NCBI GenBank assembly: GCA_021409285.1
Contig: JAGFND010000001.1
Span: forward strand, 1 to 63,360
Source: Candidatus Methanoperedens sp.
GTDB lineage: Archaea; Halobacteriota; Methanosarcinia; Methanosarcinales; Methanoperedenaceae
Length of the DNA stretch: 63,360 nucleotides
Reading direction: 5' to 3'
Part shown: one piece after another, positions 43,194 to 44,901 of the stretch
Position numbering within the stretch: position 1 is the first letter of the stretch
Layout of the letters: every line of letters starts with the position of its first letter
Notes under the pieces: model-generated
Told to the model about the DNA's origin: nothing
The model's input: the letters and a program-made list of their open reading frames with translations, nothing else
The model's database searches: none
Position numbers and translations under genes: made by a program

Positions 43194-44195
43194 ATGTTCA
43201 ATAATTTTTCATTCTGGAAACAGCGCTCCTTGAAAAAATTACTGTCAAAACCTGGTGTGAGGATGATGATCTTCACAAAAAACAATCCGGATTCTGATTC
43301 GCTTGCAAGCTCACTTGCCCTGAAGCGCATCGCAGAACATTATAATGTGGATGCAGCCATATATTATACAGGGACGATCCAGAATAAGACTCTCATTAAT
43401 ATCCTGGGCGACGATGTTATTAATATTCCAACACTATCACAATCTCAAAACCTGATAGCTTTTGTTGATCTTTTGCCAACAGAATTTACTGAAAAGATAA
43501 CTCCCACAATAGTGATAGGCCACACGCTGGGGAATACAGAGGGAATCCGAAGCCGATACCGGGATATCAGGTCTACGGAAACAACATCGAGCATCATGAT
43601 AGGTTATCTGAAAAAACTTGGTGTAGCGATCGATAAAAAACTTGCAACTCTACTTCTTTTTGCGATCAGGGATAAAACCAGGACTCTTATAGCGAATTTT
43701 ACAATGGAGGATATGGAAGCGTACTGGTTCATTCATAAATATGTGGATATGGAACTGTGGACCAGCCTTGAACATCCTTCGGTCAGATTTGAAACCTTTG
43801 AGGACCTATCCCGCGCGATCAGTAACAAGGTTATCAGGGGTGCGTCTCTTTACACAACGGTTGGATTCGTAAAAGACCCGGGCAACATTCCAAAGGTATG
43901 TAAATATCTGCTTGATATAGAAGGCGTTTCGAACGCACTTGTTTTTGCAGTCGATTCAACAAAGATCCATGTATATGCTGAATCCAAGAACATGGAGATC
44001 AACATGAAAAATATCCTGAAGAAAGCATTCGGTGATTGGGGTGATGTGACAGGTGGGCCATTCCATGCGATGACGGCCATACATCTTGGGGTGTTCGGAG
44101 TGGCAACATACGATGAGAAGATCAAACCGCTGCTTCTTAAGTCGATCAGTGATTCACTTTCTGATAAATATTTTTATGTTCTGGAGGCAGAGTAA
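43194..44195 (+). CDS. DHH-family protein with degenerate catalytic motifs
   Basis: A 333-aa member of the DHH phosphoesterase family (NrnA/RecJ/Cdc45-like), with a C-terminal DHHA1-like part. Motif I is NNPDSD (30-35) with no leading His, motif II aspartate is kept as D92 (AFVDLLP), motif III is GHT (109-111) instead of DHH, motif IV has D160 (FAIRDKT), and DHHA1 reads TGGPFHAM rather than GGGH. So the two-metal site is likely lost or changed. Being coupled to priL it may serve replication as a Cdc45-like non-enzymatic partner (inference). Confidence 0.82.
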   Translation: MFNNFSFWKQRSLKKLLSKPGVRMMIFTKNNPDSDSLASSLALKRIAEHYNVDAAIYYTGTIQNKTLINILGDDVINIPTLSQSQNLIAFVDLLPTEFTEKITPTIVIGHTLGNTEGIRSRYRDIRSTETTSSIMIGYLKKLGVAIDKKLATLLLFAIRDKTRTLIANFTMEDMEAYWFIHKYVDMELWTSLEHPSVRFETFEDLSRAISNKVIRGASLYTTVGFVKDPGNIPKVCKYLLDIEGVSNALVFAVDSTKIHVYAESKNMEINMKNILKKAFGDWGDVTGGPFHAMTAIHLGVFGVATYDEKIKPLLLKSISDSLSDKYFYVLEAE

Positions 44196-44326
44196 CTGCC
44201 GTGAGAACAATGGTCACATACTCCATCTCTTGTGAGGCACCTGGAACAAACCAGTCTTCCACAAAGCATACAGGTGTATAGTTTGCCTGGCTGTCCGCAG
44301 ATACCGCACACTCCCATTACCTCCAT
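44174..44326 (-). CDS. 50-aa zinc-finger protein with four CxxC pairs
   Basis: A very short gene that overlaps the end of the DHH gene on the other strand. ATG at 44326 follows GGGAGGG by about 4 nt. Cysteines fall in four CxxC pairs at 7/10, 19/22, 27/30 and 37/40 (VCGICGQ, TCMLCGR, VCSRCLT, VCDHCSH), which would hold two zinc ions in a cross-brace as in ZNHIT or RING-like fingers. It follows a 42-aa gene by 20 bp and a SAMP-like gene further up, all on one strand. The role is unknown; protein-protein contact is likely. Confidence 0.75.
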   Translation of the reverse strand: MEVMGVCGICGQPGKLYTCMLCGRLVCSRCLTRDGVCDHCSHGSYSASRT

Positions 44327-44346
44327 TTTCCCTCCCGATTATAATT

Positions 44347-44475
44347 TTATGATGCCTGATATGGAATAAAGTATTCTTCGATCACCCACGATTCAAGGTC
44401 ATCAGACCCCTTTTTCTTCCCCTCATACATCAATACGGCGCGTTTTTGCTGGATGTCAGATATTTTTTTATTCAT
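44347..44475 (-). CDS. 42-aa hypothetical protein
   Basis: A short frame with ATG at 44475, encoding MNKKISDIQQKRAVLMYEGK, then KKGSDDLESWVIEEYFIPYQ and AS. The peptide has a charged, ordered composition and ends with an aromatic-rich helix (SWVIEEYF). A weak AAGGA lies about 14 nt upstream. It stands between the SAMP-like gene (79 bp) and the zinc-finger gene (20 bp) on the same strand. Short length leaves real doubt. Confidence 0.5.
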   Translation of the reverse strand: MNKKISDIQQKRAVLMYEGKKKGSDDLESWVIEEYFIPYQAS

Positions 44476-44554
44476 TTATATCAGTGGTATCCTTCTGGGA
44501 TGACCATCTCCTATAAACAGGACTCGTTATTAGCATTTAAAGGTATCGATTTTA

Positions 44555-44761
44555 CTATCCACCGGTCACGACCTTTATGATATCTACATTATCTTGACTC
44601 ACCTTCTCATCAAGTGGCACAGGATTTCCATTACGGAAAACTATCACTATCTCCGGATTTATATTAAGAGATTCGAGCATATCTTCATATGTCGAATCTC
44701 CACAAACCTCCATTGTTTTTTCTTTGACACCCCCCGAAAGTATTTTCACGTTTACTTTCAA
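44555..44761 (-). CDS. Ubiquitin-like small modifier protein (SAMP/MoaD/ThiS type)
   Basis: A 68-aa beta-grasp protein ending in the di-glycine needed for adenylation by an E1-like enzyme (VVTGG). The middle FRNGNPVPLDEKVSQDNVDII is the classical ThiS/MoaD/SAMP segment. It could act as sulfur carrier, protein modifier or both. The start is TTG at 44761, whose bases overlap the TGA of the 47-aa gene upstream, with GAGGAAG about 5 nt before. No E1-like (UbaA) gene is in the window. Confidence 0.88.
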   Translation of the reverse strand: MKVNVKILSGGVKEKTMEVCGDSTYEDMLESLNINPEIVIVFRNGNPVPLDEKVSQDNVDIIKVVTGG

Positions 44762-44901
44762 AATTCTTCCTCAGGAAGTTCTTCCGATGTTACCTTTTTT
44801 TTCGTTAAATCTTCAAGATGCTCTTCATTCAATTTTCCCTCTATGATTTTCTGTTTTTTCTCGCCTTTTCTTTCCTGATTTCGCTTTTTAAGTTTTGACA
44901 T
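44758..44901 (-). CDS. 47-aa highly charged protein coupled to the SAMP-like gene
   Basis: ATG at 44901 opens a 47-codon frame whose TGA overlaps the TTG start of the SAMP-like gene. The product is K/E-rich (MSKLKKRNQERKGEKKQ, then IIEGKLNEEHLEDLTKKK and VTSEELPEEEF) and would be helical and Lys-rich. The overlap argues for translation together with SAMP. Unknown family. Confidence 0.6.
   Translation of the reverse strand: MSKLKKRNQERKGEKKQKIIEGKLNEEHLEDLTKKKVTSEELPEEEF

Follow-up and report, generated by a model that had tools for sequence, protein, structure and literature searches.

A short partner gene of SAMP2 in Candidatus Methanoperedens and its relatives

Four small genes that follow one another on the minus strand of a Candidatus Methanoperedens genome are two separate gene pairs. 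In the reading that we favour, to which we assign a probability of about 0.55, the ubiquitin-like protein SAMP2 has in the short protein KE47 its own dedicated, mostly helical accessory, probably in the sulfur-carrier branch of SAMP2, and the genes P42 and ZF50 stand apart from both. SAMP2 is of a known kind; its coupled partner KE47 is the new element.

RESULTS

Architecture of the locus

The window, by which we mean the whole stretch of 63,360 nucleotides that was analysed, belongs to a genome whose family includes Candidatus Methanoperedens nitroreducens and other named Methanoperedenaceae. All four genes lie on the minus strand, where an earlier note on this DNA had placed them. KE47 (44758..44901, 47 aa), the partner gene of SAMP2, encodes a protein with a basic N-terminal half and an acidic C-terminal tail. 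Its TGA stop codon overlaps the TTG start codon of SAMP2 (..TTTTGAAAG..), as the earlier note had reported. SAMP2 (44555..44761, minus strand) is a ubiquitin-like protein of 68 aa that ends with KVVTGG before its stop codon. P42 (44347..44475, minus strand) encodes 42 aa with a conserved C-terminal stretch, WxIEExxxPYQAS, and leads the pair with ZF50 (44174..44326, minus strand), whose 50-aa product carries the four invariant CxxC pairs of a cross-brace-type zinc finger. A GGGAGGG site had been described for ZF50; it is present just 5' of the ATG, but the purine run is not kept in relatives. With its last 22 bp, ZF50 runs into the 3' end of a DHH/DHHA1 phosphoesterase-like gene in convergent orientation (43194..44195, plus strand), an overlap absent from the earlier note. 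The Pfam matches of this gene to DHH and DHHA1 are both below the cut-off.

Families and genera are referred to here by codes: f1 is Methanoperedenaceae, f2 is taken from sequence likeness to include ANME-2 HR1, and the lineage names of the other coded families we infer.

KE47 and SAMP2 are paired across a phylum

The pairing of KE47 with SAMP2 is strong. A search of 150 genomes of the order matched KE47 in 117, and SAMP2 lies directly downstream on the same strand in 111 of these, with gaps of 2–97 bp between the two matches. The SAMP gene is thus not a lone gene, and the synteny with it, which the earlier note had proposed to check for the small frames, holds for KE47. The six remaining matches comprise one contig end and five g10 genomes, in which KE47 is intact and SAMP2 was not detected. 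In thirteen genomes of the order SAMP2 is present but the first model did not match KE47. A broader model (A4) recovers KE47 in nine of them (G078, G090, G095, G106, G114, G123, G130, G132 and G133), directly upstream of SAMP2 by coordinates; of the other four, three were not re-sampled with this model, and G136 has a weak SAMP2 match only. Both genes are absent from 20 genomes of the order in this search, mostly of family f3, where an E1 and another ubiquitin-like protein (Ubl) are nevertheless present in three genomes.

When 393 genomes of the phylum were searched with the broader model, KE47 was found in 116, including members of f6, f9, f11, f14, f15, f21, f22, f30 and f34, and in most of these further families SAMP2 lies just downstream. 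In f9 many matches have weak per-genome E-values, from 1e-7 to 1e-3; where a SAMP2 position is listed, nearly all of them are on the strand of SAMP2 and no more than about 250 bp upstream of it, and this position confirms them independently. Across about ten families of the phylum the two genes stay together between flanks that change on both sides, and since the flanking genes differ between lineages, KE47–SAMP2 is not one inherited synteny block. An E1 gene that lies beside KE47 in G018 was given no weight as a linkage, as it is a fragment at the end of a contig and a transposase-like frame separates the two genes.

KE47 also occurs without its partner. Besides the g10 genomes, four f21 genomes have KE47 without an adjacent SAMP2. 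In g29, a genus of f6, KE47 occurs in three genomes with weak SAMP2 matches. The loci of G409 and G464 were read, and neither has a SAMP2 downstream of KE47; in G464, a SAMP2-like Ubl sits beside the E1 gene. The survival of KE47 in these genomes shows that it has some role independent of a neighbouring SAMP2, and counts against a pure leader peptide.

At one locus (L234, genome G154 of family f11, on a single 1.07 Mb contig) the two genes form a single ORF of 104 aa, MSKYKKKDAERKGAKKQREIEGKLMRENLEGSEGIKDHTKVTV...LKVVSGG, in which Pfam finds SAMP2 at residues 40–101. Family f21 retains KE47 beside the same radical-SAM-like gene as the fusion locus, minus the SAMP2 part. A search of GTDB r220 for the fusion gave no match, nor did a search of viral contigs with the fusion sequence. 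As the fusion comes from one genome only, a sequencing error behind it is not fully excluded, although the in-frame join and the short linker are unlike the usual outcome of a random frameshift.

These observations bear on the explanation that survives best beside our own, namely that nothing but an ancient gene order makes KE47 and SAMP2 neighbours and that their functions are unrelated, KE47 being for instance an RNA- or ribosome-binding peptide. The persistence of KE47 without adjacent SAMP2 in g10, f21 and g29 would fit such a history, as would its strongly basic N-terminal half. However, the maintenance of the pair between changing flanks in about ten families, the fusion, and the joint absence of both genes in f3 make it unlikely that gene order is all that connects them.

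KE47 is a short, charged and lysine-rich protein

A core motif, ERKGxKKxxxxExKLxxENLxDL, is shared by KE47 proteins across families. The charge is sharply divided, with a mean net charge of +4.6 over the first 18 residues and of −7.3 over the remainder, and the lysine-rich sequence includes invariant lysines. KE47 has no match in Pfam or NCBIfam, and the best hit of a PDB profile search has an E-value of 1.7. The protein is predicted to be mostly helical, as a single helix at low confidence: in an AlphaFold2 model of the in-frame KE47–SAMP2 read-through chain of locus L313 (TAA read as Q), built on a shallow alignment, KE47 is a lone helix with a pLDDT of about 50, and this model contains no confident KE47–SAMP2 contact.

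SAMP2, its C-terminus and the enzymes that may act on it

The SAMP-type protein ending in GG that had been recognised in the window is well supported by Pfam, with a match to PF21965 (SAMP2) over residues 1–65 (E 1.5e-18, 67.4 bits against a cut-off of 27). The SAMP2 equivalog model of NCBIfam (NF041919) scores it at 58.3 bits, under the cut-off of 70, and we therefore file it in the SAMP2 family, without certifying it as an equivalog of the haloarchaeal protein. The closest solved structures are those of SAMP2 (4hrs and 2l32) and TtuB (5ztb and 5gha).

The C-terminal diglycine of the window protein is not always terminal in its relatives. Residues beyond GG are present in 11 of 30 Methanoperedenaceae sequences (L006, L014, L016, L017, L018, L021, L026, L029, L031, L032 and L033), as GGRR, GGNR, GGNRYL or tails of up to about 36 aa, and here, as in ubiquitin precursors, a processing step would be needed. 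Elsewhere, the SAMP2 adjoining KE47 ends in QG, KG, SG or AG and not in GG (L128, L129, L133 and L136 in f5; L224–L229 in f6). The same is seen in g17, the ends in f6 and g17 being SG, AG or QG, and the gene pair is still kept. Such ends may weaken thiocarboxylation.

The window genome encodes an E1 (PF00899, E 1.6e-84, contig G000:C192), for which the best NCBIfam model is the SAMP-activating E1 UbaA, at 400 bits and under the cut-off of 450. This UbaA-like E1, TusA and several DsrE-like frames stand in a row (L267 904–2241, G000:C192), away from the window SAMP2, and constitute a sulfur-relay operon. In f14 (L238, L239 and L260), KE47, SAMP2 and a SufS-type cysteine desulfurase gene are consecutive on one strand.

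Two confident Prok-JAB genes and a weak third match were found in the window genome, and JAMM-type proteases occur in all 31 genomes tested. In M. nitroreducens ANME-2d, a JAMM/Prok-JAB gene (L294 687–1076) lies about 2 kb upstream of KE47–SAMP2. We gave this proximity no weight as a linkage, because other genes, gcvH-like and surE-like, intervene.

With a conjugation machinery of this kind in mind, KE47 could be a dedicated target of SAMPylation, a small lysine-rich protein carrying SAMP2 as a carrier or storage form. Its invariant lysines would suit such a role, co-translation and the fusion place it beside SAMP2, the proteases are present throughout the genomes tested, and, according to passages of a survey of archaeal Ubl genes, other archaea SAMPylate the products of genes that adjoin Ubl genes (PMC2948915). 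Against this, KE47 is retained both where SAMP2 has been lost or moved and where SAMP2 is without GG; we regard this explanation as slightly less likely than bare gene order.

The small frames are genes under purifying selection

Reading frames of this size prove nothing alone, since 7.5 kb of sequence here hold 76 ORFs of at least 30 aa; it is conservation that does. Orthologues of KE47 and SAMP2 are present in about 30 Methanoperedenaceae genomes, as are those of P42 and ZF50, and their starts are conserved. The median dN/dS (Nei–Gojobori) is 0.13 for KE47, 0.13 for SAMP2, 0.14 for P42 and 0.15 for ZF50, values that are approximate, because many pairs are saturated at synonymous sites, and with which the pN/pS of 0.22–0.25 for the four genes agrees. 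All four are real proteins under purifying selection, and the short frames are conserved in relatives, a point that the earlier note had put up for checking.

In 30 named Methanoperedenaceae and HR1-type contigs having both genes, the spacing from the KE47 stop to the SAMP2 start is −4 to +13 nt. Stops and starts that overlap or nearly do so are what one would expect of a leader peptide or uORF that controls SAMP2 translation by coupling and has no protein function of its own. Yet purifying selection acts on the KE47 protein as it does on that of SAMP2, the gaps are variable elsewhere, KE47 survives without SAMP2, and in the fusion the two are read in frame. A leader of this type is improbable.

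P42 and ZF50 form a separate unit

P42 and ZF50 make up a two-gene unit of their own, with a separate promoter, that encodes a cross-brace zinc finger and its small partner. ZF50 is directly downstream of P42 in 46 of 46 genomes, with gaps of 15–172 bp. Its association with SAMP2 is far looser: the pair adjoins SAMP2 in 12 of 31 Methanoperedenaceae, lies elsewhere in the other 19, and is away from SAMP2 in the f2 genomes that have P42, so that synteny with SAMP2 does not hold for these two genes. The DHH gene neighbours P42–ZF50 rather than SAMP2, and goes with the pair in f1 and f2 even where SAMP2 sits elsewhere. On a tree of the DHH protein, the label of SAMP2 adjacency requires two changes, against 9.5 for shuffled labels. 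As a rough guide, the order SAMP2–P42–ZF50 arose once or twice; the tree can be no more than that, because part of it is a divergent DHH paralogue.

A BRE/TATA-type promoter, CGATACCTTTAAAT, is located at 44535..44548 (minus strand), and a box of the CGATAnnTTTAAAT type is conserved about 65–75 nt upstream of P42 in nearly all of 30 relatives, whether SAMP2 is upstream or not. The leader of P42 also contains an inverted repeat, TGGTCATCC..GGATACCA (44485..44506, minus strand), imperfect copies of which occur in most of the 30 relatives with arm sequences that vary between them. It may act as an operator, or as a hairpin in the RNA. Single folds of the leader are weak (mean z −1.3), RNAalifold gave no consensus structure for it, and an Rfam search of the region returned no match.

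P42 has no match in Pfam or NCBIfam. ZF50 was found in 119 of the 150 genomes of the order (E <= 0.001), a count that includes some weak matches inside long unrelated frames. In other families it occurs without SAMP2 nearby, adjoining genes that, from their sequence likeness, we take to be ilvD-like and mtrH-like. Its best Pfam match is zf-HIT (PF04438), and membership of that family was ruled out by the score of 22.2 bits, under the cut-off of 24.7. A RING-type E3 ligase was likewise rejected, given Prok-RING matches of only E 0.8–1.0 and the SAMP2 linkage in 12 of 31 genomes. The AlphaFold2 model of ZF50 has a pLDDT of 83, and a Foldseek search with it found no structural match at E <= 0.001. 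We know of no precedent for the P42–ZF50 gene pair.

The idea, raised by the earlier note, that the four genes together form a compact module for conjugation or sulfur transfer, in which ZF50 is the zinc-finger factor, draws on the single strand, the close spacing and the order kept in the 12 Methanoperedenaceae genomes, but is rendered highly improbable by the linkage of P42–ZF50, its own promoter, the occurrence of ZF50 away from SAMP2 in other families, and the tree. As P42–ZF50 is outside the SAMP2 module, a conjugation or sulfur-transfer role applies at most to KE47–SAMP2.

DISCUSSION

In Haloferax, the C-terminus of SAMP2 is adenylated by UbaA and then has two fates: thiocarboxylation, for the 2-thiolation of tRNA by NcsA, or conjugation to lysines, with JAMM proteases cleaving the conjugates; whether additional factors give sampylation its specificity is unclear (PMC4048286). 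The window SAMP2 is a member of the same beta-grasp family as Haloferax volcanii SAMP2 (HVO_0202, PDB 4hrs/2l32; PF21965) and Thermus TtuB (PDB 5ztb/5gha), and shares with them the C-terminal GG and a UbaA-type E1 in the genome. Some of its relatives depart from both in having residues after GG, or SG, AG or QG ends. Unlike haloarchaeal SAMP2, it is coupled to KE47, which was not found upstream of SAMP2 in the 13 haloarchaea-like SAMP2 loci read.

Our preferred reading, KE47 as an accessory of SAMP2, suggests the following course of events. KE47 and SAMP2 would be made from a translationally coupled operon, and KE47, with its basic and its acidic end, would be a small adaptor holding SAMP2 to its sulfur-carrier partners. 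SAMP2 would be activated by the E1 UbaA and thiocarboxylated with sulfur from a cysteine desulfurase or a TusA-type relay, and may then hand the sulfur on to NcsA/TtuA, the enzyme of tRNA 2-thiolation, and its tRNA. We favour the sulfur-carrier branch because the UbaA-like E1 stands in a row with TusA- and DsrE-like genes, because the SufS-type gene follows the pair in f14, and because the sulfur carrier TtuB is, with haloarchaeal SAMP2, among the nearest solved relatives. The direct binding of KE47 to SAMP2, its adaptor role and the choice of this branch over conjugation are what we infer from gene context. A bolder proposal, which we offer tentatively, is that, in Methanosarcinia-like and several other lineages, KE47 is an adaptor of 40–50 residues that binds SAMP2 and directs it either to sulfur delivery to tRNA or to conjugation; in that case, it would have been overlooked because its gene is so short.

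Links between Ubl genes and small partners have parallels. In eukaryotes, ubiquitin and related proteins are made as fusions with ribosomal proteins (UBA52, RPS27A and FAU), in which a Ubl is joined to a short lysine-rich protein. The KE47–SAMP2 fusion of one genome has the same two ingredients. It differs in that the Ubl is C-terminal, and in that KE47 and SAMP2 are separate genes elsewhere. As its C-terminal Ubl has a free GG, this fusion needs no cleavage.

Among archaea, Makarova and Koonin (2010) surveyed three genes up- and downstream of Ubl genes, and the passages of that survey considered here describe links to MesJ/NcsA, S17, PAC2 and TRAM as well as a Ubl–Cgi121 fusion (PMC2948915). 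KE47–SAMP2 resembles these cases, in which Ubl genes are linked or fused to partners from translation and tRNA modification, and KE47 differs from the partners named in those passages in being shorter and having no known domain. Neither the gene-context section of the survey nor the passages of its Table 1 considered here mention a KE47-like gene (PMC2948915), and our literature search found no description of the gene. As for ZF50, it resembles the cross-brace fingers of zf-HIT, MYND and B-box proteins and the one-domain zinc-finger micro-proteins of haloarchaea (PMC6562870) in its four CxxC pairs and its size, and is unlike zf-HIT, MYND and B-box in that all of its Pfam matches are under the cut-off and its model has no structural counterpart at the threshold given above.

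To conclude, KE47 is a concrete candidate for a factor of SAMP specificity, tied to SAMP2 by gene order, by coupling and by one fusion, in a system where SAMPs are without a known E2 or E3. It bears on the question of how a single Ubl can act in sulfur delivery and in protein modification alike. A partner as small as this can escape neighbourhood surveys that cover annotated proteins only. Relatives of KE47 occur in organisms near genetically tractable methanogens, and its deletion is therefore feasible.
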